From Gyrodactylus bullatarudis (taxonomy: Eukaryota > Platyhelminthes > Monogenea > Gyrodactylidea > Gyrodactylidae), in the NCBI GenBank assembly GCA_012064415.1, contig SSNU01000096.1, positions 41,791 to 105,790 of the forward strand: 64,000 bases of DNA, read 5' to 3'. Under the pieces are notes generated by a model that made no database searches, was not told the origin of the DNA, and saw only the letters and a program-made list of their open reading frames with translations. A program made the position numbers and the translations under genes. How positions within the stretch are numbered: position 1 is the first letter of the stretch; each line of letters begins with the position of its first letter. Shown here one piece after another: positions 1-34,943 of the stretch.

Positions 1-521
1 TTCAGAGTTACCTTATTAATAACTCCTTTTCATTATCTTAGTATCTATACGCATAACAGGATATTAGTTTTGTAATCTCCCTAGAACATATCCGTCAAAT
101 TAGAAGAAAATTAGTTCTTTATTCCATTCGTGTCATCTTTAATCACATTTTCCAATCATTCTTATTTATCCTGCTCTACCAATTCTTACAGTCTTTCGAA
201 AATAACATTTATTTAAAAATTAATTAAAATAAGCTGATAGCAAAATGGACTATTTTCGATTCCGTTGAATCTCGTTAAATCGCCTGAAAAATCATTATTT
301 TTTCATCAAGGTCTTTAATTAGAATTTTTTTTTTCGAAGATGTCGAATCATCCTACCTTATTACCGGTAAAATATTTCTACATTTTTGAGCCAACGAAAT
401 CGACATTTTTCCTAGGTAAATTAAAATTTCATAAAATGTATCAAAATTATTACTACAATACAAAACATGATTTAATAGCATTATAAAATTGTAAAAAATA
501 AAGAAGATGATGCCAAGCGTT

Positions 522-571
522 TCACAAATAAGGCCTTTATTTCGGGCATACTCATCAGTGTGATACATGCC
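522..571 (-). ncRNA. Hammerhead-like ribozyme motif, PLE-associated (pseudoknot type, family A)
   Basis: On the minus strand the order is GGCAU (571-567), spacer GUA, stem I strand UCACA (563-559), core CUGAUGA (558-552), G, U, AUGCC (549-545), C, GAAA (543-540). A 4-bp stem III with loop AGGCC follows, then UU and the second stem I strand UGUGA (526-522), which pairs fully with UCACA. Predicted cleavage is between 527 and 526. Stem II is only one G-C pair, but its loop AUGCC is complementary to the upstream GGCAU. No reverse-transcriptase ORF is left beside it, so this is a solo PLE terminus remnant. Confidence 0.7.
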
Positions 572-824
572 ACATAAGTACAAATTTACAATAAGTGTTA
601 TCCAACTTTCATTGGTTTCGGAAATATTCATTTTTGATTGGTTTATTCCTGTTTCCAGGACTCATAGTATTTTTAATATTTAAACAATTATTCGTACATT
701 GATAATTACAATTATAATTATAGTGGTTTTGATAAAAATGTTTTTTTGCATAATTAATTTTGACAAAATATGTGATAATTACGCAAGTGGTGTATATGAT
801 TTTTTGATAATTATAATTAACATT

Positions 825-1150
825 TCATTGGGGTGCTGCAAAGTACTTTGTGATCTGGTTATTGACCTCCACCTCTGCTCTGAGTCTCTTACCGGGTGGT
901 TGTTGGGAGGATTGTGGAATCTGAGGTTTAGCTTTGGGGAGGTTCATTGGCTTCACATAGTTCTTTTGTACACATAGAATTGGTTTCTCACAACTGATCA
1001 AATAAGCTTCAGCGCCTTTTAGCATGTTGACATTGTTTCCTTTAGGTTTGTAGATGATTTCAAAGTTTATTATAAAATTGCATTTTTAGATTGCCAGTCT
1101 TGAATTTATTATCATTCAGCATTGAGAAAGTCCGCTCCTAACATTCCAAC
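825..1150 (-). pseudogene. Decayed retroelement protease-region fragment
   Basis: The minus strand has a protease-like motif of the LGADFL type at about 1135-1115. After stops and a frameshift, an open stretch (about 1080-825) reads on through a region rich in Lys, Pro and Gln and ends in a stop. The arrangement resembles the aspartic-protease part of an LTR-type gag-pol polyprotein followed by a linker. The reading frame is broken, no reverse transcriptase is found beside it, and no LTRs were seen. The family is not resolved. The ORF on the opposite strand at 699-977 is its shadow. Confidence 0.35.
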
Positions 1151-3346
1151 CACTTGAGAATGTCAGTAAATAAAAAAATACTGAGGGATTGAATCAGTCA
1201 TGAAATGACCAAGCTAAAATATCGACAATTCAAGGATTGTCGACATTCATCGACATTTTGTCTCGCTTATAAAAAAGTATTACTCAAAACTGTGAATATC
1301 ATTAGAACTAAAATGAGCAAATTTCGGCCTACTTATTACTAATATTATTACTATTATTACTAATATAATATATAGAATAATTAGTTATGGAGCATTATCG
1401 AATGGGATATTTTCTAGAATTGCTTTAAAAATAGTAAATCGGCGTCTCTAAAATTTTCTTAAAATTTTTTCACTTGATATGGCCTTTTTAAAGCAGTCTT
1501 GAATTTTTCAAACGGATAGTCTATAGAACATTGGCCCCTCTTGTTTTGCAGTAATTTTTCTGAAAGACAAAGAGACTAAGGGCTTTTTAACATCGATGAA
1601 ATGAAAACGAATCCCTTGCGTTTTGTTGTTGAGCAGTTTTTTTTGAGCGAATTGAAAATCATCTTTTACCTCTAAAACGGTTGATATGGATGAAATAACA
1701 TGCTACATCTTTTGTTTGAAACCTGATGTCATATTATAAAAGTTTCTAGGTTTACAGAATTGGTTTTCCGCTGGTTAAAATAATTTTGAAATTATAATTG
1801 AAAGGATCAATTTATTACTACTACTATTATTTGGTCTCTTTTTACTCTAGACAAAGATCTGGCTGAGTTTTGATGATCTGAAGAAAATATCTTCTCATCT
1901 AATCCCGTTTTAAAGATGACTGGTACTATTTCTGTAGTTAATTTTTGCCCAGGTACTTTTTTTTCAACCAATTCTCAAAATATAGCATTCCTCAACTATT
2001 ATAGTAAACAACCAATCACCAATTAACAATTAGATTCAGGATATAGAGATTTCATCATTTAAGCAGCTAGCACCTAGATCGAAGCTTTGAATTACGCTGG
2101 AAAATATTCCTTGAGAATTGAAAATTTTAACTAAAAGTATTTATTTCGTAAAATATGCGCTATAAAAGCTGAAATTTTCCTAAAATTTTAAAAGTTTAAA
2201 ATATGTCTAATAGAGATTTGATACCTTCTTCTTCTTCGCAAGAACCATCTCTAAGAGTACCTAGAATCTTCTCTGGACCTGTATATAATATATTTTCCAA
2301 AAATATTTTAATTTTTCTGTGTCTTAAAACCTCATCTTTTACATGCTAAAAATATGCCTTTTATGACTTGCTAATGAATAGTAATTGGTTTTCTTGAGGC
2401 CTTCCATTGATTTGCTTCTGTACCCCTAGTTTGGTTCATGATCAATTCTGTGAAATTCTAATCGACTCTGTTTTGAAATATGAGGTTGTCCTTTTTTCTT
2501 CACACGATAAATCTTTTTTTCGCTTTCATCTAATTTCAATCATTTCGCCCGTTAGCTCAACAATGTTGACTCAACATTCCAGCCCCCACCCATTCCATTC
2601 CTGCAGCATGCAAAACAATCAAATTTGTCATATTTAAATGAATGAATTTCTGCTATCTCTCTGTTCCATTAAAAGAAAACATCCATTTCTTTTTTTTTCT
2701 CTTTTCTTCGGTACTAGAGTTGGAGAAAATAACTAATGGAACTGCTCTCTCATTTCTTACCAACTCTACTTTTCCTGTCTTTTTTTCTGACAATTTACTC
2801 CTGAAATTTGTGCAGAGATTAAATATAGTCTTATCATTTTGTCATCTGTAGATTTTTGAATACTTCCTGGATAGTTTAAGCCTTTTTTAAGAAATTGAAT
2901 TTACATTTATGTCACAATAATTGAGTTTTACGCATTAAAGAGTAAGACAAAAATTTTATGTACCTAATTTTCAAGAATTTGGTTAATCTAAAGGGGTAAT
3001 TCTCAAAATCTTATTTAGCAAAGTTGGTTTTTTTTTACTAATCGGGGTCCTAAAAATCAACTTTCGATCCCTATCTCACTTTGAAATAAAATAAAATTTT
3101 CTACTTTGGCACGTCCAAAAAATGGTTATTTTGGCGTCAACTCGAGATTTGGAATGCCATAATTTTCTCAAAATTTATGTTTTCAATTTTTTTTCGCAAA
3201 AATTTATCTAGATTCCTAAAAACTTTACGATTTCAATATTGCTGCTGGGATTTGTTACAGATTTTGTGTCTTTTTCATCGAGATTTTTATTATTTTTGAC
3301 GTTGCTTTTGACCTAAATGAAACGTAAACAAAAATACAAAATGTTC
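1151..3346. other. AT-rich intergenic sequence, no gene seen
   Basis: Low-complexity AT-rich DNA. The short open frames at 2407-2637 and 2642-2851 are rich in Phe, Ser and Leu, have no domain-like pattern and lie in pyrimidine-rich DNA, so I do not call them genes. Confidence 0.5.
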
Positions 3347-3505
3347 AGACATTAAACCTACTAGCTAAGTGTGGTCACTGGTTATTACTATATCCTTGTG
3401 AATCTAACTTGATGGAGATTGTCTTTTCACACCTAGATGTTAGAGTTCGGATAAGCAAGTGTCACTTCCATAAGAGAGTCAAATAATATTCAACTCACGG
3501 TGGCA

Positions 3506-3548
3506 GATGTATACGCGTTTCGTCCTTATTAGGACTCGTCATTACACC
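3506..3548 (-). ncRNA. Mirror copy of the hammerhead, core C3 mutated
   Basis: This is the inverted copy of the 3673-3715 ribozyme in the left arm. The only difference I see between the arms falls in the core: on this strand CUGACGA reads AUGACGA. C3 pairs with G8 in the hammerhead fold, so this copy is expected to be inactive. Confidence 0.6.
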
Positions 3549-3619
3549 ATAGCCTGGAAACCAGTGTGTAGGTGGTGTCAATACTATGGGAGTGTTGAGT
3601 GATAGGAGATGAACGGGGG

Positions 3620-3671
3620 TTCTGGCCTAGTGGTTAGAAGCGTTGCCTCACCACGTTGAAGACCCGGGCTC
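3620..3671 (+). other. tRNA-like (polymerase III A-box) sequence in the spacer
   Basis: TGGCCTAGTGG at 3622-3632 fits the A-box consensus TRGYNNARNGG exactly and is followed by GTTAGA, as in tRNA-Glu/Asp-like D arms. A poor B-box-like stretch (GTTGAAGACC) lies about 20 nt downstream. No full cloverleaf can be drawn, so this is a tRNA-derived or SINE-like head rather than a functional tRNA gene. Confidence 0.45.
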
Positions 3672-3672
3672 G

Positions 3673-3715
3673 GGTGTACTGACGAGTCCTAATAAGGACG
3701 AAACGCGTATACATC
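3673..3715 (+). ncRNA. Hammerhead ribozyme, canonical stem II and minimal stem III
   Basis: Stem I strand GGUGUA (3673-3678), core CUGACGA (3679-3685), stem II GUCC/GGAC with loop UAAUAA (3686-3699), GAAA (3700-3703), a 2-bp stem III AC-GC-GU, then A and the second stem I strand UACAUC (3710-3715). All invariant core bases are present (N7 is C). Predicted cleavage is after GUA, between 3709 and 3710. A stem III this short usually works only as a dimer of tandem copies, as described for PLE and satellite hammerheads. Confidence 0.85.
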
Positions 3716-3874
3716 TGCCACCGTGAGTTGAATATTATTTGACTCTCTTATGGAAGTGACACTTGCTTATCCGAACTCTAACATCTAGGTGTGAAAAGAC
3801 AATCTCCATCAAGTTAGATTCACAAGGATATAGTAATAACCAGTGACCACACTTAGCTAGTAGGTTTAATGTCT

Positions 3875-5199
3875 AAAAACAATGTAATTTCTACTTTGTG
3901 CTTATTCAAAAAATACAAAATGTTTCACCGTTATTTGTCTTCAGTTCTTAAAATCATTTTTAGGGATTAATTTTCTTCAAAAAACCCTTAGTATCTTGGT
4001 TAATTCATCTTGATTACTGCTAAATACGAGGATTAAATGTCCGACTATCAATTTTGTACTCAATAATCCATTTGATGTTTCAATATGCGAGATTTGGTAA
4101 ATTACTGTAAAAACTATTTGTCTCATTAGGATAATGGATTAGGCCATACTAAAAGAATGTCTAGAAATACTCAGATTTAATTTCAAAAGAATAAATCTTG
4201 AACTATTCCCACATTCCAAATTAACAAGATGACTATACTATTTTAAAAGAAAATTCAATCAATGCTGTTAATGATCTTGATGCCTTCTTAACAATGGGTA
4301 CGTTTTCTTTACCCGATATAAATTCGGCATATTTCATTCCTTCCTTTATCTATAATATGTATGTACATAGTTTATATTTTCGTATCAATTTCATTGTGTA
4401 CATATTTATTTATTATTAAATTATCCTGCCTGTTGTGTTTTTCCCTATTTCCTTATTCCCTCAAAAATTAACTCTGGGAAATTTTGAGCAAATAATGAAA
4501 TCTGATTTCTTCCATCATCTTCTACTCCATATTACACATGTACACCGCTTTTTTCCTAGAATATATTTGGCAGCTGTTTCAAAAACTTGAACTGCATTGA
4601 CTAATTTTTTATTCTTCCTATTATTGCATGTTCATCATATCAACTTCCAGGCTTGTCAACAAAATCTCGGCTATTTTCTAAATTTCAAAATTACACCAAG
4701 TTTTATTTGTTTTTTTTGTACTGAATAGATTAAATACAGAACGGTATTTACAAAACGTCGTTCGCTTGGTACCTGAATTCCTCTGGCGTAAGATTCTTCA
4801 AAAAACTCAAGATACTTAAAACCTTGTGTGACCAGTTAAAACTTCTTCTCCTGAAGAAAAGTTTTTAATCTCTTTTCCGAAATGGGGTTTCGAGTTGTCC
4901 TGGAGAGATATGAGTCTACAGAATCTCGGATAAGATTAATCGAATCGTCAAAAAATGATTTGTGCATTTTGATAGTCCCAAGCAATACGCATGTCTGGCA
5001 ATCTGCCAAAAACCTTTCTAAACAAAATACTCAAAAATATTTATGCTTTTCAATTTTAGAAATATTTTATAAGTTCAAACAAATATAGTGATTTATTATC
5101 TTTCTAATGGTACAAAATTTGTTCGAATTCATATTAGTTTTAGAGGATAAAATTTTTGTTCAAGTTGGAATCCCATTGCTTATCACACAACCTATATCT
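3875..5199. other. AT-rich intergenic sequence, no gene seen
   Basis: No conserved coding signal. The short open frame at 4882-5088 has no recognisable domain, no signal peptide and no matching splice or promoter context. Confidence 0.5.
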
Positions 5200-5203
5200 T
5201 TAA

Positions 5204-5283
5204 CCATTTCAGCGTCAATGGACATATATTTTTCAATATTTTCAAATTTTGGGTTTTATGAAAATTGTGGCACTGAAAGGGTG
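5204..5283. mobile_element. Putative short piggyBac-type MITE
   Basis: TTAA at 5200-5203 and 5284-5287 bracket 80 bp. The left end (CCATTTCAGCGTCA) and the complement of the right end (CACCCTTTCAGTGCC) are imperfectly related. ATGGACATATAT lies directly inside the left end, like the palindromes of the better preserved elements at 14201 and 51852. The repeats are degenerate, so this is tentative. Confidence 0.4.
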
Positions 5284-5841
5284 TTAAATATAAATCTCTA
5301 GGTACGAAATAAAATCAGTCGTGAGATAGTCACCATGTTATTTTAAAAAGATATCACTCTTCCTTTGCTATATTTACCTAATACACTCATCAATTGGTAT
5401 TTACATTACAAGATAATTCTCTCTTCAAATGGAGATCTTTCTCACTACAGAGAGACATAACTAATTCATTTCCTCTCACTACAATTCTTTTAATTAATTT
5501 TAATCCTTTTACGAAATGAAATGAACAAATCCAATGTAATCTAGACTGAAATTCGGTAACTGTCAATAAATATTTGTAAAAGTAGATTTAATCGGGATAT
5601 AGCCAACCTTTTCTTCAAAGCCTCTTTCAGACGTTTCGGTACTGAGAGAGTCAATTACCTTCCTCTGAAGAAACCATTCAAAATTAAAAAGAAAACCTTA
5701 TAGTCATAAAATATAAAAACTAATCCAACTTTTTAGTCAAGTATTTTTATCTCAATCAGACATTAAAATTTTAATGACTTGGGAGTTTTGAGAAATAAGC
5801 CAGGACTTGAAAATTCCAATAGAATACGTAATTTATCAATT

Positions 5842-6162
5842 TTAAACAAATGTAGAATCAGATGAGACATCATCAGAACTTGTATCATCTTGATTGTACA
5901 TGTCGCTGGAACTATCGCTATTGTAGTCATCACTGGAATCAGAGCTAGTATCGTCTTGGCCGTACATGTCACTGTAGGTATCATTGGCCCAATCATTGTT
6001 ATAGTCGTCACTGGAATCGTTGTAATAATCGGGAGAGTAGTTGTCTTCGCCACCTTGCTGATCTACCGAGACATCGTTACCAGCTCCGACCTGGATTTGG
6101 ATGAATACGGGTGAGCAGCGAGCCAATGCGAAGAGAGCTGAAGCCAAGATTGCAGTTTTCAT
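5842..6162 (-). CDS. Small secreted acidic Asp/Ser/Tyr-rich protein
   Basis: Single-exon gene of 106 aa. Residues 1 to about 16 form a signal peptide (MKTAILASALFALARCS). The rest is dominated by Asp, Ser, Tyr and Asn and includes an imperfect repeat, SDMYGQDDTSSD and later SDMYNQDDTSSD, each preceded by SSDDYN. There are no cysteines after the signal peptide. Acidic, Ser/Asp-rich secreted proteins often bind calcium or act in extracellular matrix, mucus or mineralised layers, but nothing here fixes a role. The TATA box at 6204-6210 sits about 45 bp upstream of the start, which supports a real promoter and this start codon. I do not recognise a family. Confidence 0.7.
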   Translation of the reverse strand: MKTAILASALFALARCSPVFIQIQVGAGNDVSVDQQGGEDNYSPDYYNDSSDDYNNDWANDTYSDMYGQDDTSSDSSDDYNSDSSSDMYNQDDTSSDDVSSDSTFV

Positions 6163-6203
6163 TGTGTTTTGTTCGATTTGAGATTCATCTCATAGATAGG
6201 TCC

Positions 6204-6210
6204 TTTTATA
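6204..6210 (-). promoter_or_regulatory. TATA box of the acidic secreted protein gene
   Basis: TATAAAA on the minus strand, within GAGAGTATAAAAGG. It lies 42-48 bp upstream of the ATG at 6162, leaving room for a 5' leader of 10-20 nt. Confidence 0.7.
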
Positions 6211-6219
6211 CTCTCCTAA

Positions 6220-9200
6220 AGTGGAACATTTATCAACTTAATTTAATCATTGAGTTGATTTATGGGCCCTTACACAGGTATTTTCTCGAAAAATACTTAT
6301 CGATCTGTTCTTTGATTTATATGTTTTTATTCTGGCAGAAAAGTTACAAAAGCTAGGTTGAATTCTCTTATTGATAACTGTTCACTTGCTCAAACTGCTG
6401 GTTGCGTTAGATTCTGTTTATTTCAAGATCTGAAAAACCATTCAGACTGTCAGTTTCCCCAATTGATAGATATCTCAAAGTTTAACAGAACACACATGGT
6501 CTTGTTTATGCCAGGAACCCCTTCGTGAGAATTCTCATCTATTTTTCATAGTTTACTCAAACGTATCCCAAGACAGACTCAAAGAGATGTAAAGCTAGTT
6601 GGTATCATAAGAATTAAAAAATACTCAATAAAATTTCTGATAGGCTTTTTTGACCTTTTTTCTGTAAAATTGGCGCATTTTGAAACATAAAAAAGGACCC
6701 AGACCCATGGTAACAGAAAACAACGCTTTGTTCAATCAATGTAAAGAATCAAAGTTTATTTTTTCACACTATCAGAGAGCAGTTGAGTTAATAGATTTTC
6801 CATCAAAACAAAAATATGTCAAGATCATCTTATTTCTCCAGATCCAGTCTTGTCTATCCTTTTTCTTTTTCTGAGTGTTTGCGTTGGAGAAAGTATAAAA
6901 ATTAAGATTACTCTTGATGAAATAAAGTTTTAAAATTTACTCAGTAATTATGAGTGAATCTGTCATCTTGATAGAATTATTCCCAATCTGAACAAACTAT
7001 CCTCTTAATTTCAATTACCGTAAACTAGCCAATAGTTAGGGTAAACTGTTTCTTCATTCACTACTGTTTTTCCATCGGACTCTTACTGCCTAATCTCTAT
7101 CATCTTGAATATCTTTGCAATTAAATGAGTTTTTTTATTGAATAATCTCGCATTTTTAATAGTACAGTCAATTTCCTTATTTAGACTTCTTAGCCCTAAA
7201 ATTCAAACCAATCAGTGTTGAGTACTCTTTAGCCAATAAGGAAAATTCTCATTCAATTGGCATATTACGAGCAAGATCAAGTTCTAGAATTATTATTCTT
7301 CTGAAGGTTTGAAGAATTCATAATGAGGTGAAAAACTGTTTATCCCTTTTTTGCTAATTAGTTTGAATTTTGGGGCAGAGAGAAATCGATTTTATTTAAA
7401 AGCTTAACCAGTGTTTAGTCTGAAGAGACCCGGCGAAATATAACGCTTATCACTATAAATTTTCGTCCGTTTCCTCGTAACTACCTTATGAGTTCAGAAT
7501 CATATTAAAATCTTGATGAATTTCTACAAAATCGCTTAAAAACTTGCTATTCCAACAGACTCATTCAACGATATTCATGATTTAAGGGATTTCTTAGTAA
7601 TAGTTGATTGAAAATTTCGCGATGATTTGAGCATGCTTTAGATACTTAATAAAACAAGATGAGTAGGTTGAATTAATTATTGAATCAATCATACGAAAGT
7701 AAAGAAGGTTTTTTGGAATCTCCTTCATGTTTGCACCTTGATTGCAATCTTTAGACAGAAGGAAATCTTTTTTATTCCGGCATCAGCTGAGAGTAATAGG
7801 AATTATGATTCTCAAAAGCTTTCATTTTTTACGATATTCAGGTTATTGACAATACTTATTAATTCGCTTCATTTTCCCTCTAATCATAATCGACATTCTC
7901 TCATCCGATTCCTTTTTGTAGCATTCATTTGTGCAACTGGCCAACTATTTTGAATTCCTATCCTTGATTAACCCCAAGGGAATAGTTTGTCCTCTACTGA
8001 TTAGTATACTTATAAACATATATCAATGAAAAGACTCTTGAGCTATATTAAATCTGAAATTGAAATTTTACGAAATTGATCTGAAAACACAACCAGTTGT
8101 CTAGTAAATCTTGCAAATCTCTGAGCCTTTTGGTCCCTTTTGATCGCTTCACAATCTTCAAATAGAGTGAATAATTTTTTTTCCATTTTTGAGTTATAGA
8201 ATCATTAACATTTCTCCTTCTTTTTGTCTGAGAAAAGTTTTCCTGAAAATGACTATTAGAATAGCAAAGAAATTTTATTTCATTCCATCCTAGGAGGTGT
8301 CTAGAGGCATTTTATTTTACTTATTACAAAAAGTACATATTGATTATTATCATAATAATTATTGATAAAATTCCTTGGAAAAATACAGATGAATTTAAAT
8401 CATATGCATCTACGCCAAAAAACATACTCAAATTTGTGTCATGATTAGTATTTGGGAATTAAATACATTAAATGTAAATTAAAAGAAAACACCAAGTCTT
8501 CTATTTCTTCAAAATACTAATGAAAATAAAACATACGCTATAAACTCCCTTCTTTTACTCCTGTGTGTGTTACCATGGTGAGGATATTAATCAAAATTAC
8601 TTTACATTTTATGTTATGTTCGCATGGTATCAAGTTGGTATACACAGACCATATAGCATCTTGGAGAATACTCCCCATTAGCACTACAATATTTCCTAGT
8701 TATATAAAGGATACATTTTTTTCAGATGTATTTCTTCTCCAGCAATGAATGGATTGTATTTAAATTTTTATTCCAGTCACAAGTTTTCATTTCTATCAGA
8801 TATATCATTTTAACAACTCGTTGCATTACACCCTTACAAGTGCTGCGATTGTGTGTAATTTAAATTTACAAAAATATGTGTTTTGAATACGAGAGGGTTA
8901 AATAAATTCGAAAATGTTCTTGTATTTTTGTGTGCAAATTTTGTAGCCTTTACCAGCTAAAATTATTTTTTTTAGATCTTTCTAGTCCCTAATAATAATC
9001 ACCAGTTAAAGGTTTTGTTTTGATGAAAGCCGATGTCCAAATTTAGTTCATAAATTTGATTAAGACTTAAACCAAACCCTCAATGAGGAATAGTTGACAT
9101 GTACAATGTTATTTATGATTACATACAAATTACGGAAGCAATTCGTTTCTGTTTCAGCGAAAAATTCGGCCTAACATTCCTATTGCTCGTGGGGTTTTAC

Positions 9201-9749
9201 TACCATCGTTTCTCTTATGTGTTTTTGCTTAATTAGTGGCCTAGGGAGCATTAACTGTTGTACGAATTTCTTTTGAACACAGTGGCTTCTGCTGTCTTGA
9301 GGGCTGTGATGTTTTAAAAAGATTAAATTATAAATCAAGTTAATTCTTTCAGGTCCGAGTCTATTTTATGACTTAAAACATTGAATATAAATACATATTC
9401 GGAATCAGAATGAATTATAGATGAACTATAAAACCTTGAATCATCTGAAAATCTTTACATGAAAAAATTCTTTTCGACATTTTTCAATACATTTTCCCTA
9501 TCTACTTTCAAGCGAGCGCAAAAGTAATTTCTAATAAATAAGGTGAAATTACTCAATTCCGATGAAATATTTTTGGGTCCAACTTTTTTGGGAATATTGG
9601 TAAACACGGTATTTAATGGTGTGTATCTTTTATAGGTTCTTTATTTCTAAAAAAAATTAAGTTTTAATATTTTGGCCCACATATGGGCCATGGACATGTT
9701 ATTCAAGAGATAAAGACATATTTTAATGTGATATTTTTCCATTTTCAAG
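6220..9749. other. AT-rich region with no recognised exon
   Basis: Apart from the ribozyme-like motif at 7408-7455, I see no supported feature. The missing 5' exons of the DEG/ENaC gene (first transmembrane helix and finger region) may lie here or outside the window, but none could be recognised. Open frames at 6680-6874 and 7738-7953 have no conserved features. Confidence 0.4.
7408..7455 (+). ncRNA. Hammerhead-like ribozyme motif, partly decayed
   Basis: Stem I strand UAGU (7416-7419), core CUGAAGA (7420-7426), G, A, CCCGG (7429-7433), C, GAAA (7435-7438), a 3-bp stem III (AUA/UAU), then C and the second stem I strand ACUA (7452-7455). Core bases are intact and cleavage is predicted after 7451. 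The upstream block CCAGU (7408-7412) only partly complements CCCGG, so the loop-to-upstream pairing seen in the other copies is eroded. No PLE coding sequence is adjacent. Confidence 0.55.
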
Positions 9750-12700
9750 GAAGAAATTAATAAAGTCTGCAACTGTAGTGCCGTGGAATTTCCAATACTT
9801 GACGAGAGCCTAGACTACTGCTTGAACATTAGTTCCTTCATTGAAGCTGATTCATGTGAGCATTTTGACGAGCAATCTCCGTGTACTCAAGATGTTTATA
9901 AACTCATCAAGAATGTCAAATGTAAATCCATACAATTCTCTCAATTCTCGGTGAGTCCTCCTATTTCATAACTTGTCTTATATTCATATTTTTTTATCAT
10001 CATAAAATTTTCTTTTTTATCTTGCAGTCTCAAATTTCCTGAATATTCCATGTTAAATATTGAGTATTTTGGGTTAACATTACATGTCCCTCTCATATCT
10101 AGAGATAAGCTAATTAGATTTTTCTATCTTTGTCTCTAATTCGATGCAAAAAAGTCAAACAGCTCGCCTCAGAGAGAAATACTCAGCGTGTATCTATTTC
10201 CTCAATTTTTGCAATGATTTCTGCTTCACTAATGATTGAAGGCCTTCCAGACCTTCCTTCTGCTACATAAACAATCCAAAAACTCTTTAATATAACGTAG
10301 TTGGGTATCGAATCCACCTAACAGAACTTTGGACCAACTCCCTAGCTATATTTTTCAGCTTCCGAGATTAGTTTAGATTAGTGTAAGGGAAGTCAATATT
10401 CTCATTATTAAGACCAGTTTCTTTTTCCTCAAAGAAGTGAGACAAAATATCCCTTTTTCCCTTGTCAATAGAAGTCTTTAGAAGTGTACTCCATGCAACA
10501 CGAGAAACTTCTCAGGAGGGAGAAAAAAAATAATATTTTTATCTATCTTCATTGTGTCTAACTCCTTTCTCATTGTGTGAATGTATAGATATAGGAAAGA
10601 GTAAACTTTGAATTAATTTTTTTTCCAAAGAATGGAAAAATTCGTTTTCTTACTACACAGATACAAAAGAATCAAAAATTGATTTGATAATTCAGCATAT
10701 AAATTCATGCTACTATATATACTCTTGACTGACAGCTTATTATTGTTCTCAATAATTTTCCACTGGGAGATTTTTGTTATTTTTCTCATCCATCTTTCTG
10801 TATTTTTATTTCCCGAATGATAACCCTTCAACTCAACTTTCTCAGATACTCTGCTGGCCTCTTATTATGAGTCAAATTTAAAGTTGGTTCATATGAAGTT
10901 GGGAATCTATGACTTTTACGAAAACCTAGAATTTTTTCTGAATTAGTAGAAATATTCATTTCTTAGAGGATTTTGAAGACGAGTGAATAATGAGTAATTA
11001 AGCTTTTATTTCACCGGTTCTCATCAGACTCTTACACCGGCTAGATATTTATACATACAATAAGGAAAATTTAAAAATCCTCTGATTGGACAAATGGGAA
11101 TTGAAAGAATATCACAGGGGGGAGGGGTAAGGTTTCACTGGATTCATTGTCTTTTCTTGAGAAAGGGATCTAGTTGTAACTGCCCGCTACATCTTTTTCC
11201 TTTGACTCCTCGTTTTTTAATTGCACACTTTTTTTAGAATTTCTTATCAGAATTTCGAATATGTTAAAGATGTTTTTGGAATCCAAATTGCCCAAAAATT
11301 CTTTACAATTTGAAGAAAAAGAATTTTGAAAAAAAAAATTGTCAAATTTCGATTTGGCACCAAAATCCCATTTTTTCGAAATTGAAACTGAAATTCTTTA
11401 TTGATTTCAAAGTGAAAGAGAGATCAAAAAAGGTTTTTCAGGATCACAATAAGACGAAGAAGCTAAATATCACCGAAAACTTTTCGAAAAATCCACCACT
11501 TTTAAGGGATTTCGATTTGTCAAAATTTCATTATTTAAAACGATGTCGTGCTTCTCCCATTTTCATGTACGTCTGAATAACTTGCATTCCAATGCCGTCA
11601 AAATTTTATAACGGTCTCGTCAGTCTCAATTCCTCGTTCATTATTTAATAAAAATAGTCATGATGAATATTTTTGAATGAAAAAGGAACTGCGGTTACTA
11701 GACATTAGGTGAGGGTGAAATTATTAACCTTAAGCTTTTAGTTTCAACTTTTCTGATAGAACTATCAATGCTAAGCATTATTTTTTAGCTTCGATTTCGA
11801 ATTTATTTGTTTAGTACAAAAACCCTGAGGATGAAAGCATAGATGCCTGGGTAAAGGAAAAATTCGTTATCAGTCTACACTAAAACCTAATCCGAAGCTA
11901 GTTGATATGAAGATGAGAGCACTAATTTTTACAATAAACTTAATATTTTTTTCCGCATACTCAGGAATACAGATATTTTTTGGATCCCATAACGGAATAA
12001 GCCAATAATTTTTTTTTAAATTACACTTAAAAGAATAAATCTTAAAAAATTGCCCAAAGAAGTGAACTGAAATTCGTCATTATCGTGGTTAATCGAACCA
12101 TTTGAATTTTCTTTCGCAAAACCATAGCTGTAGGTCATAAAGAAAAGAATATTGATTTAGTAAGAAAGGCGATGCCTGAGAATATGAAGAGATTGAGCTC
12201 TATTTCGGGCATACTCTTCAGTCTTTACATGCCAAATATAAATACATCCATATTACAAAAAGAAATCTGATTGGTTAGCCTTTCATAGGTAGTAATAGAT
12301 TTTGAGAATACATAAGAATAGATAGAATTTTCGGAGACTCTGTCTTCGAGCCTTCGCGTTGTGTGGCCAATGTATTCTGCATTGTAAAGGCATTTGAATT
12401 TGTATACTACGTATGACTCTGATAATGGGTTCGGTCTGTCTTTTGTTTTGTTAGTGAACATTCTCTTCGATTTGAAATGAAATCTCGGTTCACACATGGG
12501 AAAATTTGACGAATACCATTGTTTTATTTTGTTTTTTGTTGTGTTTTTCAATACTTCTCCTTTGAATGGTAGGAATGTGTTAATCTTCTCTTTCGCCTCT
12601 AGTTCTTTATCCATTGGTTCATCCCATTTCAAAGCATGGTGAACACTTGTTTAAGTTTGATTCTTTCCTCTTCTAAGCAATCCGATGATACTTGTTTTTT

Positions 12701-15700
12701 CAATCTCGAGAATGGTGATTTCACCAATCCCTTTTTAATAGACTTTGGAGAGTATGTTCTTTCTTTATTCAATAATAAAAAGTTTTATTCCCCACAGGAT
12801 AGATAGTTCTCATATTAAAATGTAGGAAATTTTCCTTTGTTGAGTGGAATTGTTAAATTCAAAACTCTTAATACAGAATCTCCCCTGCCGTCAGATAAAT
12901 CGATCAAACTCCTTTCTTAATATCAACGAATTAACTTTCTACTTCAAAAAGAATGTTATTGTAATTTTTGCTTGAGCTCGTCAAAGCGTGTTCTTTCATC
13001 GAATTAATTAAAAAGCGGATATAAAAAACTTTTAATGATATGAAATTTTATTGAAAAAAAAAGTTCCCTTTCGCATAATTTCTTCAGGGTCTAATTATCT
13101 TGAAATTACTATTTACTTGTGAGTAATTTATAATCTGTCAAAAAGGATATCTTTTCAACTTTATTGCAAAAACATATCATGACAACAAATCAGTATCATC
13201 CAAAGGGTTGTCATTCGTAATGACTTGGTTCTTTAAAAATACTATATATATTACAAAATATTGTTTTTTCCCGAACATCATAGTAAAACTTATTCAAAAT
13301 TTTTTGGCTCGTATTTAAAAACAGTAATTTTCAAATGAGATTTTGTAAATCAGAACAAAAATTGAAATATTTGAATTCAAAAGAATTTTTTTCTCAAAAT
13401 TTAATTCTCTATCGAATAAGCAAATAGCCGAAAACGTTGTAAACATTTGTATTACCCTAATATATTTTGAAGATAATTAGTCAGATATATTTTGGAGAAT
13501 ACTTCGTATCAATTTAGTATCAAATAAATTGAGCTTATTGAAAATCAATTATTAAATAAGGGCTTATTCCAAAAAGGACCCTAAATAAATATCTCAGAGA
13601 TTTTGAAAAAAATTCATTGTACTCACAAAAATATATCGACTCAAAATGATTTGAAACTTGAGACCAATTTACTTTAAGTTCAAAAATTCTTAGATAACAC
13701 TACCAAATATATTTGCTTTCAAAGGAAAAACAAATAAATAGAACTTTTATTTTGGGATTAAATTTCTCAAAGTTGCTTCTGGCTTGTATATATCTGTAGC
13801 ATATCTGTAGGTACTGTTGAAATCAAAAATTACGTATCATTAAAATCCTCCCTAACTTATTTTAGTCTGTGTTTTAGGCAGGAAAGGAATCAAAGATTTT
13901 CTTGAATTGTTTATTATCTGATCATGTTTCAAGGTAATCATAATACATACCTGTGTTCGTAATCATATTCTATTCATTCTCTATAATTGTTATTAAGTTA
14001 ATTAGCTTCCATGTCAAGTCGCTTATCTCACTACAATCTTTTACTTTTGTAGGCCTATAAAGACTTGTTCTATTCTCTTCTTTTTTATACCTAATAACTT
14101 GAAAATCTCCGTATCTATAGACAATATAGAATCAATATGTTTGATAGGCAGGTAGTTTGTGAAATTTCAAACGAACAATGTTCAAACTTAAGATACTTAA
14201 CCCTTTCGGTGCCGAGACTATTTCACAATTTTATAAAAACCAAAATTTAGCTATTAAGATACCAAGTTATTTGGCCAAAAATATTACTAATGCAAGTTTA
14301 CATTGTGGGCTTCAATTTAAACTTTAATTAGTCCAGAAACCTATCAAACTGGCAGAGTTATGAAGGTTCAAAAAAATTGGAAAATGGACATATATGTCCA
14401 TCGGCACCGAAAGGGTTAAAACCTTGTGTGTCCAATCAAAACATTAAACCAATCAGATTTCTTCTCAACTTTAATCAATAAACTCTAACCAACAATTTCC
14501 AATATTTATATCCGTTTTATCACTCAAGTCAGGAAGCAACATTCTATGCCGAAAAGTTCCCTGAAGAACTACTTGGTTCAAAATAAAAATTTATTATTTT
14601 TACAAAAAATTTTAATACTTTTCATAAGATAGTCAGGAACACGAATATTTTTGATAAGTTCCTGAGTATTTTTCAATCCAACCATGACTGTTATGCACTA
14701 GGATATGGACAAGTAAAAAAAGTAGACGTATTGGGCTGGGACTTTAATACACTAGGTTTCCACTTTCCCTAACGTTTAAGCCCAAAATTTTTATCAATTT
14801 CCAAGTTTTAATTTGATCAATTACGGTAATAAAAATTCTGTATCATTATCTCTCGTGATGATTAAGAAATTTAGATTTTATTTTGCTAATTTTGTTATCT
14901 ACCCCTCATAGCTGTAATTAACTCTATTAGATCTACTCGAAATTGCTTCTTCCTTTTGGGAATTACTCTCTGTATACTATACAGTGTGTCTACTTTTGTC
15001 TGCTCTTTTCACATTACAAATCTTTTACAAATTCCCCTTGTAAAATATATGCCCTCAAGGAATATCCAAGAAAATTGTGAAATACCCTCATTTCTAAAAA
15101 TACTCTCTTTTCTCACAAAGAACCTCAAGATTTCTCTCATTTATAGTATATTCGAACTGACAAGAACCATGAATATACATATATATATATATATACAGGT
15201 TTATTCAAAGTGTTCGACAGACATATGGTTAAGATTTTTTTGGAATTCAAGGTAAAATATGATTTTTTTCAAATTTCGATTTGGCGCCGAATTTTAATTT
15301 GAAATTCTTTGATTGTTCAAAAGGAGATTTTCAAGATCAAAATTAGAATAGCAAATTAAATTTTATTCACTATAATTATCGTCTGGGAGTTGAATATAGT
15401 TTTCTTGATCATTTTCATTACCTGAAAATCAATGAAGTTTCAATAATTCCAAAATCCCTCGATGACGGTGGATCTTTCGTGAATATGATGGTAATATTCT
15501 CTTTCCTTGTTTAATTTCGATTACAAAGACTTCTTTTGACCACTTTACGAATTTCAGCTCAAATTCCATATAAATGGGAATTTGGCACCAACTTGAAATT
15601 CAAAAAATGTTTCAATTTTTTTCAAATGAGAAGGCCAAATGATCTGGATTCCAAAAAACCTTCATAATATTGGTCTTCTTGATTGTTGATTTCAAGGTGT

Positions 15701-19861: not shown

Positions 19862-22800
19862 ATGCTCAAAAAATTCATGAGTCATTTGACTAGTCTAAAC
19901 TCAACCTTCCTGGTCCTGTTTCTAATTCTTGTCTTTTTCACACCAAATTATAGAGCTATCAGTGTTCTTTATCATCCAAACTATTCGAATTATACAAATA
20001 TTGTCGAAATTCTCAATGAGAAATCTGTCTACCTTTTATCGGATGAGTAGGTTCAGTTTTATCAATGAGCAAAACATTTTGTCTAGCTCCACTATTCTCA
20101 AGGTTGACTTTGACCAGTGGAAAATAGAGAATGCCATCAATATAAGAGATTTATTCAAAGATGTTTGTTAGCTCTCTTTACTTGTAAATTTATAGTTTAG
20201 AAAGTTACATCAGAAAATCACCCATTTCGGCCTGACAAATGATGGCAAGAAGATATGGTACTGTTTCTCCATTGTAAAGGATGAAGATCACCTTGATAAG
20301 ATCCTCTCTCGGTGTGAAATGCCATCAGTGGAAAATATAAATAGCCTCTTACTGGAATGGAACAATGACTTCTTTGCCTCTAATGATGTTGGCAAAACGG
20401 TTGTCCTCAATAGTGACAATGGCTTCCTCTACACTGGCATCTCAAGGAATGGAATTCTATCCCTCCATAAAACCCTCATGCCGAGGCTAGATGGTAAGAA
20501 GGAGTTTGCCAAGAAACAAATATCAACGCCAGTTCATCTTGGATTCTTTCGAGGTTAGTTCTGTAAAAAAAATAATCGATAAATAAATAAATAAATTTTC
20601 TCTAGAGCCAGCAGAATTCATCGACTCATTCGAAACTAATAAAACAGTTTTCTTCGTCATTCGTGAGACATGCAACCGACCAGGCTGTAATACGGAGTTT
20701 ACATGCACTAATTTGATAAGAATTTGCAAAAATGATCATGGTTTCAGTGCTAATAATCACAATCGAGAGTTTATATCATACTCAAAAGTAGAGTTAAAAT
20801 GTAAATTCAACCAGGAAATCATCTTGACTGTTGGCCTCGATTTGTCATTTGTGCCCGAGGATGAACGTCTCTTTATTTCGTTTACGTCTGAAAGGTAAGT
20901 CTTGTTACTTAACCATTTCAACACAGCCTTACTTGAAAAAAAGTTAACTATATTACAAGATAAGCAAGATATACAATATATAATAGAGATTTATTGAAAA
21001 TAATTTATAAAAGGTTTGTCTTCTAGAAGAATGATAATTTTCTTTGACATCTGGTTTATTGTTTGGTGTTTATAATTTAATAGGTTGAATTCTTTGAGTC
21101 TAAATCTGAGGGGATGTAATGTCTGGAGAAGGACTGTGAATCTGATTGGACGAAAATGTCTCTTTACCAGTTAGCTTGACTACCACTTTTGTTGAGATAA
21201 GCCTTGGGTAGTGCTCTGTTGAATTCATTATGGCCACAACTGTATCAGTTACTCAGTCTTTCATAAAGAAATTCTAGCCAATAATAATATTGACCAGTTT
21301 TGCCCATCTTGAAAAATTCTAAATTAGAGTTTTCGAGTTATTGGATAAAAACTAAAAACCTGACTTGCAGGGCTTTGCCTTTTTATACACAAGAATATAA
21401 ACGAGATAGAAAAACAAAAATGACATTCTCTTGTCCAGGAATAAATTCTTAACAAAGAAGAAAAGTTATTTTTCGAAATTTTTCAACATCAAGTCAATTT
21501 TGTGAAGGTTGTAGGAAAGAAATCTACCAAAACTCGGATGCAAAGCATTCAAAGCGTAAAAAAACCTTTTGGGAAATTATGATCCTGTAGAATATTTTCA
21601 TTGACGAATCTCTATTTTTTAACACCTATAAAAACAAAAGGCTTCATGTGCAAGTTGGCGCTGTTTGTGTCTACGAACTGAACGAAATAGAAGAGGCCTT
21701 TGATGGGGGACGAATTAATCGGAAAAATTCCAAACTAGCTTCTAATCAACATCCCAATGTCTGTGAGAAGCTCGATGGTTTTGACTTGAGCCAGGAAAAT
21801 GTTGCTGAAATCCACGGCTTCTACAGTGAATTCTTTCAGGTTGAAAAGTCATTGGCTAAGAACAGTATTCTGAGTCGGCCAGAGTCCATGGAAACGGCCA
21901 TAAATCCTATGGATATATCCTTTTATCAAGTTAACGTTGACAGAATCTACAGGAACGGGTACATCCTATATTTTGGCGGAAGTACAACTGTCTTTCGCCA
22001 TGTATTCATCTTTGAAGATCACGGAAACTTTACCCATTGTCAGTATGACTCATTCTCAGTTGATAAAGAAACCTTTGAGGTTATTCTAAAAGTACATCTC
22101 TCCAAGCTACAAGATGCCTTCTACGTCCTCACCAATCACCAGGTTATTAAGCTAGAGAAAAATTATCCTGCCAAATGTAACCAAAGCGTACTGCCCCATC
22201 TACCGGAAAGGAAACTCGAATGCCATGAAAGCTCATTGTATTGTACCTGGTTTAAGTCAAAAAACAAGTGTCTATCAAGTAGTGAACACGAGAACCTAAA
22301 CAGACTTAAAGATTATTGCCTAGCCAAGTCAATAGTTCCTGAGAAGAGATACCAACCCTTTGATGTAGTGATGATCCCAGAGGCTCCTCACGACGTCAAG
22401 CTGAAATGCCAATTTGATGTTTGCGGTAATTGCAGAGACAAACTCGACGAAAAGATCATCCTGAGAAATTGCACTGGTCAACCTCGATGGTCTGGGTGGA
22501 GTAACTGGTCCATGTGCTATGGTGACTGCTCAAAACGATATCAAACTCGAAAGAGAGTTTGCTCTGATCTATTTTCCAAGGGCAATCTTTATAGAACTGA
22601 TCAAAGTCGATCTTACTATGAACAAATAAAGCAAATATCTTGTCGTCTTAATGAGACAAATCCATCTAACCGAGTGACAGTCTCCCCTGATGGTCGCATT
22701 GTCGAGATACAAACACGCCAAGACTGTCATTTATCGAAGGAACATAAATGCCCACGATTCAAGAGGAATTCCAACCTGATCCATTGGTCTGAGTGGACAG

Positions 22801-25800
22801 CCTGGTCAGAATGTCATCCAAGAGAAGAGGGCCATTTCATCAGCCGATATAGACAGTGTATTGAGTATGAAGGGGTCAGCGATAAGACCAATGTTGTCAA
22901 GGACAGCCTTTGCTCATTGGACTCGTCTGAGGAGTTGAAACCTTGTCAAAAATCAACCAGATCTAGTAATTCCTTAATCATTTAATCTCATGATCGAGAT
23001 TGAGCTGCTTGCTTCAATGATTTTATGTAGTATTTTGTTTTTTTTATAGTGAATAGTCAAACCCTGTCTGAATGGACTGAATGGTTTCACAATTTCGGCC
23101 ATGACTCGCAACTAGACCAGTTTCGGATCTCCTGTGAAATTGATCGAGAATATTCCAACGATTTTGTTCTTATCATGGATAATGATCACGAAACCAAGTT
23201 TTGCAATGAACAAGAAAATGAGCCTTGCACAATCGTTGTAGGTAAGTCATAAAAATTTTTAGCTACACAATTTCTCATTATGCCAATATTTGTGCCAGTA
23301 TAATAGTAACTTGCTCAATATTAACTTTGTAAACTCACTTGGAAATTTGAGTTGATATCATATCAGGAGTTCTTTTTCCATTTCAAATACAGTGGTTTCC
23401 CTATTTTTCATCCATAATTATAACCATCATACCTATGAGTGGCATCATGTTTTTACAAGATATTTAGGCTTGTGGTCGAAATAATCTGATCAGATTTGGT
23501 CTCAGATTCGTAATTTCTAGTACAATTAACCTTCTCTTTCAGATAAACTTAGATTTTTCGTGCGATTCCTTCGTTCACCCACGCTGTTAAAATCTTTTAA
23601 AATGTTATACAAACAGTTATGATTTGAACATCATTCAATAGAGAATTAAAAACTAGACGAGGATGCCAAAATTCAATGTTCTATCCCAATATTTTATTTA
23701 GAAACCATCCTTTCTAAATACAAGATTTATTTTGTACCGTCCAAAGTAGAACATGAGAAAATAAAGTATTTACCAAATAAAAATTGAAAAAAATTCGGCA
23801 TTCATTTGAAAATTTTTGATTTCCAAGCACTAGAAGATCGATCATGATTAGATAAACTAAGAACTCTATTTCTAGAAGATAATCCAAGCAGTTCAAATGA
23901 TGGTGGAAGAGATCCTGAAGCCTATCAAATTGTCAATCCAAAATGGTCCAACTGGTCCGAATGGGTTAATGAAGTGCACATGGAGAGTTGTACAAATTCC
24001 AGTATTTTCCAAATGGACCCTCAAATGAAGAGTAATCAAAGGGCAAAGATTAAACAGACAAGGATACGAATTTGTCTCCTCCACGACAGGACTGTTGGCA
24101 AGGAGTTTTGCATGAAAAATGATGAAAAGTCATCCTTTGAAGAGAGGCAAGTTGAAGTTGATCCCCATGAAATTTGTAAAGGATCTGAATCTTTCTGGTC
24201 GTGTTGGTCGGAATGGGACAAGTGTAAGGCAAACACTGATACTGGCCTCGTAAGTGTATTCCTCGTTAAACACAAAAAGTATTATTTTTCAATAATTACT
24301 TACAAGTAACTACTATAAATTATTAAAATAAATTAACTAGTAAATAGTAATTTAGGTAGTTTTTAGTAGGGCAGTAAATTTGCTATATATATATATATAT
24401 ATATATATTTGCTGGACAATATAGTTAGTATGTGATAGGCTGAAGTAGATGTGGAAAGAACTTTTTCAAAAATACTTTTGTAAAGTACGTAAATTTTTCT
24501 TGAAAATTATACCATTTCGAATTCGTATAGATTAAGTTGAAATTGAAATTGAATAAAATATTATTAAAACAGAGAAGGCCAACACCTTTTTGTGATTTTT
24601 CAAAAATTTTGTATCTTGACTAATTTTCTTAAGCCTGTCTCTGATACGTATCAATGAACAAGAGCACTCTTCCGTTTCATCTAGAGAAATTTTCATATTT
24701 AATGTCGAATCAAATAACTACAATATCGAAGAATTTTAATCTCATACTAATTTAAAATGGGAATTTCGACACCTGAAAGTGGAGTAAATATTCTCAAATG
24801 TGAATTTTGTACTAACGAAAACTACTGAAAACAGTTTGGCGGAGTCTCACATAACTAGAGGATTCGGATGATACCTAAATTCTCGATCAAATAATGTCAG
24901 CAATGCTGATTTCGGCTGAATTTGAATGAAATAAAAATCAGATGGCGCTTATTTTGGCGTAAAATTTCTGAGATGGTGCTTGTTATATTTTTTCGATTTG
25001 GCACCAAATTCCCAAACTTCACCAAATTCGAACTTTTATATTGATTTTAAAAGTGGGAAGGTGATCAATTGAAGTTTTTGAGGATGGTAATGAATTTGAG
25101 AGAAAAGGAATGAGGAGAAATTAGTACAAAATGAAAGAAGAAGAAGAAATCGAAAAAAACTACGTTAGAACTTTATAGGAAGGGTTTACTAGATGTGAGA
25201 TTTTGAGAAAAAACTCAATGTTGTCAAGACTTTATTTCCTACCAAAGACACACAAAATAGACTGCGAGAACATACCACAAATCCTACCCATGAGACCAAT
25301 ATTAGGGTAATTCAAAATTTTATTTTCCCCGAACAATGTTCCATACCTTAATCAAAAATAGATGTTGTAACCATGAAAAACACATTTTTGAAAATCAAAA
25401 TGAAAATTTTTCATGTTCTGATATACAAAAATCCCATTTTCCCTAAAATCATCAAAATTTACCTAATTTCCTGGGACTTTCCTCCGACATGTGAAAGAAC
25501 ACTCAATTTTTATTATAATAAATAAGATTTTTATTTGAAAAAATTAGTAAAATAGTTATGTGAATCTGGTAAAAAAAGTTTGCAATAATATTTACAATCT
25601 GTGAGATTTTTTGGTTTTCAAAAACGTTAAAATTTAATTGGAATCTGTGTCTGAGGGGGTGCAGGGTAGTCAATAAAATTGTAAAACCTCTTGATGAGCG
25701 TAGATGATAACAGCGGTCAGGAGGAGGAGGAATCTTGTGGTAAAGTGCTGCAGAAGAGGCAATCCTTCTCATCCAAATAGGGTCGAGATTTGATCTGTTC

Positions 25801-33665: not shown

Positions 33666-34943
33666 CTAATATTCAATAGTGACTTTTGATAGGAGATGGG
33701 CTTCCTCACCTCTGGTGACAGCATCAACAAACTCTTCGAAAATTTCAATTCCTTCTCGCATAGAAGTCTTTTTGTAGGGGTGAAGGTTCTCCGTGTTCTT
33801 GGCCAACTCGTCAAGAACTCGGGGTAAAGTTGGCACTGATTCCAAGCTAAACTTGTCGACATTCTCCGCAAGGAAGGGGACACAGATTTGTCCAGTCTTT
33901 GGATGGACACAAAAGGGACTCTTCAATAAATGATTCATGCCTGTGGTTACGTTGGCGTCAAGCCTTGGAAACGAAAAGAATAAAATTATCTCTTTGACAA
34001 TGTCATGTCTATTCTCTGATTCCAAGAATTGCCGGATTGCTTTCCAACGTTTGAGGGAGACATCATCGGAATCAGAAGATTTATCCCCCAATCCTCTGAT
34101 TATTTCAGCTTCTTTTGACATTTCTTTGGGAAGTAATTTTATCACCAAATCTAAGCCTTCTTTACGGCCAAAAATATTCTGGCCATTCTTTGTCTTGATG
34201 TAATCGAGGAATCGATTATTTAAAAGTGCCAAAGATTTCTCAACAAAGGGATGATTGTAAAAGCTAGATGAGGCTCCCTTGCGTCCAGCGGCTTTAGCCA
34301 GACTTAAATAGTCAACAATACACGAGCGAATATTTGAATCAAGATTCCTTGCTTCTCGATCACCGATCCAACAATGGACTCCACGACGACCCGAGAAGAT
34401 CCAGAGCAGATGCTTGAATCCAAAATCTTCTTTTAGAGCTCTATCGAGGACTACAACAGCATTCTTTGCCAATTTCCAACAAAGGGAGCAAACAAAAGTC
34501 TTTGAATTAGGATTTTGCGATCCACAACAGAATCGAATATCATCATAATCAGTTAAATCAATATCAAAAACAAGTTCTCGAGAAATTGGCTTTGGAAAAA
34601 TTTAATAAATTACCATCATACTTTGTAGCTGGGTGATATAAGGGATCTATGCAGTTTAGGTGAAGCAGTATAGACAGCTCCTATATCGAGTTTAATCGGC
34701 ACAACTTTGGTTACTTCATCTTTAAAATTCTGCACGGATTTGAAACTTTGATATCTTAGAAAGATATCACCTTCAAGAGTAAAGGATATTTCTCGTTTAT
34801 TTAGCTAAGATAGATTAAATAGAGCCTTTTACCTTATCTTCATCTATTTTCTTGTCGTATATAATCCATGAGGTGAGTAGATCAAATGGAAATAACTTTT
34901 TATAATATATCGCCATCAATTCCTTGGAATAAAACTCTGTCAT
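33666..34943 (-). CDS. PRIM1: DNA primase small (catalytic) subunit
   Basis: Three exons: 34943-34833, 34804-34622 and 34589-33666, separated by introns of 28 and 32 nt; phases are all 0 and the product is 405 aa (human PRIM1 is 420). It synthesises RNA primers for DNA polymerase alpha in the nucleus. Visible landmarks: REISFTLEGDIFLRYQSF, the catalytic Asp pair in VFDIDLTDYD, a zinc-binding set (FCCGS ... VCSLCW), ALKEDFGFKHLLWIFSGRRGVHCW with the nucleotide-binding S-G-R-R-G-x-H, FPRLDANVTTGMNHLLKSPF and VHPKTGQICVP. The reading frame is intact. An AATAAA is at about 33653-33658 on this strand, overlapping the 3' side of the convergent peptide gene. Confidence 0.95.

Follow-up and report, generated by a model that had tools for sequence, protein, structure and literature searches.

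Candidate compact pseudoknot hammerhead ribozymes of Penelope-like elements in Gyrodactylus bullatarudis

Related hammerheads and the layout of the motif

The closest described system is the PK hammerhead (Weinberg et al. 2015, as cited in the structural work; crystal structure 8YDC, Zhan et al. 2024, PMC11300833), in which, according to the available portion of the structural paper, the pseudoknot fulfils the role of helix II while G10.1-C11.1 is kept, and cleavage runs at 16 per min. The same portion gives the Pistol ribozyme the helix connectivity of the PK hammerhead, with a shorter core loop and without CUGANGA (PMC11300833). The accessible text of Perreault et al. 2011 describes a metagenome hammerhead of type II whose stem II is a single pair and whose essential 6-bp pseudoknot was rescued by compensatory mutation (PMC3088659). 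Finally, small hammerheads are placed in the terminal repeats of Penelope-like elements (PLEs), with a reduced stem III and proposed dimers (Cervera and De la Pena 2014; Lunse et al. 2017; per the available excerpts of PMC7761336 and PMC6466107), and the former excerpt describes them as minimal forms in which either helix III or the usual tertiary loop-loop contacts are missing, and whose role is unknown (PMC7761336).

We describe motifs in a window of 64,000 nucleotides (the whole stretch of DNA analysed) and in the genome around it. Judged by their letters, they are very likely compact pseudoknot hammerhead ribozymes of Penelope-like retrotransposons, probably a dimeric variant of the PK hammerhead. 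The focal copy lies on the minus strand and reads, 5' to 3', GGCAU GUA AAGA CUGAAGA G U AUGCC C GAAA UAGAGCUCAA UC/UCUU, where the slash marks the expected cut. Its parts are as follows.

12229-12233, minus strand: upstream pseudoknot block GGCAU, read from the sequence; partner 12208-12212, version GGCAU/AUGCC
12222-12225, minus strand: stem I 5' strand AAGA, after the 3-nt spacer GUA (12226-12228); partner UCUU at 12187-12190
12215-12221, minus strand: hammerhead core CUGAAGA, read from the sequence
12207-12214, minus strand: 8-nt loop GUAUGCCC, made up of G10.1 (12214), U, the pseudoknot strand AUGCC (12208-12212) and C11.1 (12207)
12203-12206, minus strand: GAAA core box, read from the sequence
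12193-12202, minus strand: stem III strand UAGAGCUCAA, containing the palindrome GAGCUC (12195-12200)
12187-12192, minus strand: predicted cleavage dinucleotide UC at 12191-12192, followed by the stem I 3' strand UCUU at 12187-12190

The hammerhead rule and the register of the motif place the predicted cut between 12191 and 12190. The hammerhead features present are the core CUGANGA and GAAA joined at the helix II position, stem I, and a stem III ending in UH. Stem I is 4-6 bp long, and the loop has 8 nt, the last 5-6 of which pair with the upstream block. Among copies that form four or five of the pairs, nearly every one has 7 or 8 nt between the end of this block and the core. When loops of 4-16 nt were scanned, 96 of 117 palindrome-followed candidate cores had a loop of 8, in a survey for which most loci had originally been fetched with the 8-nt-loop pattern; the 21 candidates with other loop lengths look like chance, except two with a loop of 14, which are of the canonical type.

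This layout shares with the PK hammerhead the hammerhead core, an 8-nt loop between core and GAAA and an upstream strand paired to that loop, the loop being GACUGGAC there, in the available text, and GACCUGGC in one family here (PMC11300833). The same source gives a 5-bp helix IV, an AUA4 linker and a CCAG block ending 18 nt before the core (PMC11300833), whereas in our copies this distance is 7-8 nt, stem III is palindromic and one family carries U3-A8; G10.1-C11.1, present in that RNA, is kept by some copies here and missing from others. A helix IV of at least 3 bp is possible in 30 of 44 contexts, a few of which are chance motifs, against a shuffled mean of 27.7 and maximum of 36, and is not above chance. 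With the type II hammerhead, as far as its accessible description goes, the motif shares a possible one-pair stem II, a pseudoknot and the natural U3/A8 cores reported there, but that RNA is a single one-pair case with loop I-3' tail connectivity, while ours are type I with thousands of pattern matches and a palindromic stem III (PMC3088659). The position in a PLE and a self-complementary stem III too short for a monomer recall the small PLE hammerheads, whose tertiary contacts are said, in the excerpt available, to be missing (PMC7761336), whereas here there is a pseudoknot. The hammerhead core CUGANGA/UUGAUAA sets the motif apart from Pistol, and the Rfam pistol model gave no match in the whole window at the gathering score, in ten loci, or in window positions 1-14000. 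Close layouts are already known, namely, on the available text of both papers, the PK hammerhead (PMC11300833) and the type II one-pair hammerhead (PMC3088659); in PLEs the present layout was not found in the open-access literature searched, though specialists may know it from Lunse 2017, Cervera 2014 or Weinberg 2015.

Copies in the window and across the genome

The sequence-only reading had described five copies with blocks GGCAU/AUGCC, CCAGG/CCUGG and CCGGU/ACCGG, each pair of blocks complementary. All five stretches were confirmed on reading the sequence, with the blocks as described. The CUGANGA-like core ascribed to all five holds for four; the remaining copy, at 26616-26658, has UUGAUAA. 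A search model made from 23 copies, of which the window supplied two, recovers all five at 29.5 to 43.5 bits and adds five weaker ones (18.1 to 27.3 bits, E 0.0031 to 0.24), each with damage. Besides the focal copy (12187-12233, minus strand), the window thus holds the following.

522-571, minus strand: GGCAU/AUGCC copy with stem III palindrome AAGGCCUU, 39.7 bits; downstream of an endonuclease remnant at 828-1067 (minus strand)
10992-11040, minus strand: CCGGU/ACCGG copy with a G-U closing pair, 43.5 bits; among the model's own rows
26616-26658, plus strand: CCAGG/CCUGG copy with core UUGAUAA (U3-A8) and palindrome UACGUA, 42.1 bits; among the model's own rows; 160 nt after an endonuclease reading frame
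56987-57035, minus strand: CCGGU/ACCGG copy with decayed stem I, 43.5 bits; in an 87-nt repeat shared with 10969-11055 at 92%
7406-7439, plus strand: decayed copy with loop GACCCGGC and upstream CCAGU, 21.2 bits, E 0.056
38080-38113, minus strand: decayed copy with loop GUAUGCCC, upstream block and GAAA lost, 18.1 bits, E 0.24
46959-46992, minus strand: second-clade copy UCAAAG/CUUUGA (6 bp) with A10.1 and A11.1 and box GAGU, 27.3 bits
48879-48912, plus strand: second-clade copy with decayed upstream block and palindrome UGUACA, 22.2 bits
59249-59282, minus strand: second-clade copy with damaged core (CUUAUGA), 27.2 bits; weak endonuclease remnant at 59369-59458 (minus strand), E 0.046

A further model match at 30096-30123 (minus strand) scores 18.1 bits, like 38080, but has no core and was judged chance, as were, by eye, candidate cores at 13087 (minus strand) and 54058 (plus strand). 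With one core mismatch allowed, a scan of the window gave 10 matches with a 5-nt complement, 4 of them real copies, against a mean of 3.07 and a maximum of 7 in 30 shuffles. Statistics from the window alone are modest; the genome data decide that the motif is not chance.

The genome searched (77.3 Mb, 471 contigs) holds more than 3,000 pattern matches. The C3-G8 core with an 8-nt loop (CTGANGARNNNNNNYGAAAT) matches 1099 + 1201 = 2300 times, and the reversed pattern 5 + 3 = 8 times. A second clade has A at 11.1; its pattern gives 897 matches, with none in the control. The U3-A8 pattern UUGANAA gives 433 (control 57); among the first 100 matches listed, 38 are exactly UUGAUAA with GACCUGGC (in DNA, TTGATAA with GACCTGGC), 5 are one letter off and most others look unrelated. 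The half-changed cores TTGANGA and CTGANAA give 181 (control 16) and 219 (control 25) matches, for part of which another repeat accounts: among 90 CTGANAA matches shown with letters, CTGAAAAATTTTAACGAAAT occurs 21 times, a different repeat family that mimics the pattern. UUGAUAA also occurs in seven elements fetched by their endonuclease gene (loci L082-L087 and L099). As read from the letters, it is a compensated change from C3-G8 to U3-A8, in which both substitutions jointly preserve the core pair.

The Rfam models tried do not recover the pseudoknotted copies scanned. No hammerhead family fell on a pseudoknotted copy in the whole window at the gathering score, none matched ten loci at E up to 5, and none matched the pseudoknotted copies in window positions 1-14000 at E up to 10; the sole scoring site was a canonical copy at 3673-3715, at 20.2 bits, under the cut-off of 34.

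That canonical copy belongs to a separate structure at 3331-3890, a 227-nt inverted repeat (96%) with a canonical type I hammerhead in each arm (4-bp stem II, loop UAAUAA); the plus arm holds 3673-3715 (plus strand) and the core of the minus arm is changed to AUGACGA. Its canonical core and loop recur elsewhere in the genome (CTGACGAGTCCTAATAAGGACGAAAC), and the repeat is perhaps a retrozyme-like element.

The link of the hammerhead core to PLEs, which the sequence-only reading had taken as established, is supported by the flanks of the endonuclease gene and by the RT domain. Directly 5' of the focal ribozyme and 160 nt before the 26616 copy the window contains the following.

12240-12760, minus strand: Penelope-like RT/endonuclease remnants, tblastn E down to 3.7e-20
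25744-26472, plus strand: open frame for the end of a Penelope-like endonuclease, 84% identical to element L101

The frame 25744-26472 alone has no Pfam match at E 0.001, and has at least 151 genome matches (150 of 3182 first-look candidates were scored). Eighteen 3' flanks, hand-picked among the matches that reach the C-terminus and fetched blind to the motif, carry the motif on the same strand in 18 of 18 cases, 133-191 nt downstream of the frame; 11 were detected by the strict scan and all 18 once the U3-A8 core was allowed. The 19 motifs in these flanks have a full pseudoknot in 18, the exception being one mismatch in L099, and a palindrome in all 19. Three open frames submitted to Pfam (812, 781 and 713 aa) each contain the RT domain PF00078; no GIY-YIG domain was found in them at E 0.05, though the frames look GIY-YIG-like by eye. 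Database relatives, which carry PF00078, PF28514 and PF26215, include a Dicrocoelium protein (35%) and two rotifer proteins. Among loci L001-L081, which were fetched round the motif and partly overlap, 36 have PLE coding matches.

Element L100 has two identical ribozymes in tandem, 2676 nt apart, within a 125-nt repeat (95%) that flanks an 813-aa RT frame; cuts at both would yield a 2676-nt RNA starting 43 nt before the first ATG. L102 has an inverted 61-nt copy (836-896 and 3127-3187). Neighbouring copies with the same loop block are in tandem in 6 listed cases and head to head in 10 (one duplicate in each, from overlapping loci), with none tail to tail; for Penelope, the accessible part of PMC3846280 names inverted repeats in head-to-head order as the commonest arrangement.

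The 5' inverted copy of L102 begins inside the ribozyme core, and in several other copies homology starts no earlier than 1-7 nt upstream of the core, as though this were a frequent end point of copies. The CCGGU-family copies lie in a common 87-nt repeat (10969-11055 and 56964-57050, 92%); no PLE coding match was found next to either on the same strand, and they are perhaps short non-autonomous elements.

Covariation of the loop with the upstream block

Pattern copies (113 matches, merged to 101 distinct, those near sequence ends omitted) have five Watson-Crick pairs in 53 cases, four in 29, three in 16 and two in 3, and we infer decay and truncation for the 19 of 101 with three or fewer. Across the genome, pairing of 5-6 nt between upstream block and loop occurs in at least nine distinct, fully paired versions. 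In the second clade the matched blocks UUGAAG/CUUCAA and UCAAAG/CUUUGA occur 125 and 207 times, against 1 and 2 for the swapped combinations.

Alignment rows were used in several sets. An any-offset motif search yielded 83 rows of 142, a few of which are chance matches (for example L020 at 2153, window 13087). A chosen set comprises 23 rows at offset 8, 21 of them distinct (L064 belongs to offset 7). In the 21 distinct rows, 96.2% of pseudoknot cells are paired and all five pairs vary on both sides; sliding the register by one column lowers whole-structure pairing from 95.2% to 36.7-43.5%, and the whole-structure covariation score was reached by 0 of 500 shuffles. Two of five measures in the chosen rows do not exceed the shuffles, namely pairs changed on both sides (54 of 500) and further pair types (280 of 500).

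In an R-scape-like test of single column pairs (1326 pairs in 86 rows, with 60 simulations), none of the pseudoknot pairs was significant. Two of these pairs reached E 1.33 (rank 4) and 4.87 (rank 5) and the other three 21 to 53, in a register set by the spacer letters that places the UUGAAG rows one column off and so is biased against pairing. The best stem I pairs had E 1.25 and 1.25 (ranks 2 and 3), and a stem III pair ranked first in rows that had been palindrome-selected. On the branches of the tree, double changes are compensating in 6 cases and lead to a pair in 1 more, while single changes break a pair in 37 cases, keep one in 19 and restore one in 11, with 3 between unpaired states. 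We read the absence of significance as due to few independent events, most differences lying between families, and the 37 single breaks presumably reflect decay of dead copies.

Since the single-pair test was not significant, a directional tree-null test of paired cells was run on the 86 rows, which had been selected by palindrome and independently of pairing (2 rows skipped, cores restricted to C3-G8 or U3-A8). Pseudoknot cells are paired in 84.8%, against a mean of 43.5% and a maximum of 73.4% in 500 runs of a null that keeps tree and substitutions. Nine fully Watson-Crick 5-mer versions occur, several of them one pair apart, against a null mean of 0.064 and a maximum of 3. Of the stem I cells in these rows, whose selection required a C3-G8 or U3-A8 core, 84% are paired, where the null gives 43% on average and 81% at most.

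The covarying pairing of loop and upstream block that had been proposed from the window is supported by the nine versions, the 84.8% of paired cells and the two-by-two counts (125 and 207 against 1 and 2). As for covariation among genome-wide copies, the paired-cell and swapped-block counts speak for it, but the tree-based test of single column pairs does not.

Stem II, palindromic stem III and the proposed fold

The sequence-only reading took stem II to be a single pair and the loop-to-upstream pairing to be a pseudoknot that probably stabilises the fold. A standard 10.1-11.1 pair is indeed possible in 18 of the 21 distinct chosen rows (G-C, G-U, U-A and A-U), and the loop does pair upstream; but in 359 of 897 second-clade pattern copies A10.1 stands opposite A11.1, so no standard stem II pair is possible. 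In three flanks of this A/A kind (L095, L097 and L098) a sixth pseudoknot pair reaches 11.1. Taken together, the A/A copies and the six-pair pseudoknot make the pseudoknot helix, and not a stem II hairpin, look like the constant feature. The idea of stabilisation needs a refinement: in the closest solved structure, on the text available, the pseudoknot helix replaces helix II instead of contributing a side contact (PMC11300833). It is unlikely that these are minimal hammerheads with a true one-pair stem II, in which the loop-to-upstream pairing would be an extra side clamp; the 18 pairable rows would suit such a structure, but the A/A copies would not, and the available description of the PK hammerhead combines a G10.1-C11.1 pair with a pseudoknot that takes the helix II role (PMC11300833).

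Directly after GAAA, 82 of 100 rows have a palindrome of at least 6 nt (30 of 47 when identical 12-mers are counted once), against a mean of 10.1 and a maximum of 18 rows in shuffles and 4 rows at a position 24 nt further on. Fifteen different palindromes of 6 or 8 nt occur, including UGUACA, UACGUA, UGCGCA, UAUAUA, AAGGCCUU, AAGCGCUU, AAAGCUUU, AAACGUUU, GAGCUC and AGAUCU. Since a 6-nt palindrome in this place, from GAAA to the cut, cannot fold back on itself but is able to pair with that of another copy, stem III probably forms across two RNA molecules. The hammerhead work of Lunse in 2017 reportedly gives a pseudoknot for most earlier examples and a weak stem III for the new ones. Palindromic stem III fits published statements, in the parts of these papers available, that PLE hammerheads form double hammerheads (PMC6466107) and that stem III of an axolotl hammerhead bears a palindromic tetraloop (PMC7229834). 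It is likewise unlikely that the ribozymes work as monomers with help from the protein that the element encodes, the palindrome serving another purpose; an Anolis PLE hammerhead is described, in the accessible text of PMC11167929, as cut only with its protein present, but palindromes such as UGUACA leave no hairpin room, fifteen different ones occur, and PLE hammerheads are said to work as dimers (the title of Lunse 2017; PMC7761336 and PMC6466107, in excerpt).

We propose a model in which the pseudoknot helix would stack at the usual helix II site, as in 8YDC, and two RNA copies would pair through the palindrome into a symmetric double hammerhead. Cleavage would follow the UH dinucleotide that precedes the stem I 3' strand, and in a tandem transcript it would release a unit-length RNA with the whole gene. 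More tentatively, and with rather less than even confidence, the copies may constitute a distinct compact subclass of the PK hammerhead, with no helix IV, some members without the stem II pair, and an obligate symmetric dimer through palindromic stem III, giving two hammerheads and two pseudoknots in one two-fold particle. If this is true, the Penelope hammerheads described in reviews as minimal, with no tertiary contacts, would do their work in the form of this compact dimeric subclass. The copies suggest how PLE hammerheads could still work, with a pseudoknot contact replacing helix II and another copy lending helix III, and they offer a possible explanation for an association of self-cleavage with tandem arrangement in PLEs. 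They also provide a candidate PK hammerhead of smaller size than the RNA in the crystal, and a search model for copies to which the Rfam models used here gave no match.

Two further explanations are very improbable. The upstream and loop blocks could alone form a nested hairpin without catalytic role, for example for protein binding or as a start structure for reverse transcription, which an Anolis PLE is described as beginning in a stem-loop (PMC11167929, in its available text), but this would give no role to the letters of the core, to the exchange of C3-G8 for U3-A8 or to stem I, in which 84% of cells are paired. Just as improbably, the copies are old inactive relics complementary by shared descent only, as the many truncated or mutated copies, the few independent double changes and the single pairs not significant on the tree might suggest, yet the motif is retained by elements whose open frames reach 813 aa, and differing block sequences stay complementary.

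The window also contains animal genes between 21591 and 44068, including the following.

33666-34601, minus strand: DNA primase small subunit
35331-36110, plus strand: major vault protein
41777-42409, plus strand: P-type ATPase

Frames at 21591-22985 (plus strand) appear to encode thrombospondin repeats, with a Pfam match below the cut-off. The primase gene has its best match in the monogenean Cichlidogyrus casuarinus (52%), and the first 19 matches listed are all flatworms by name.
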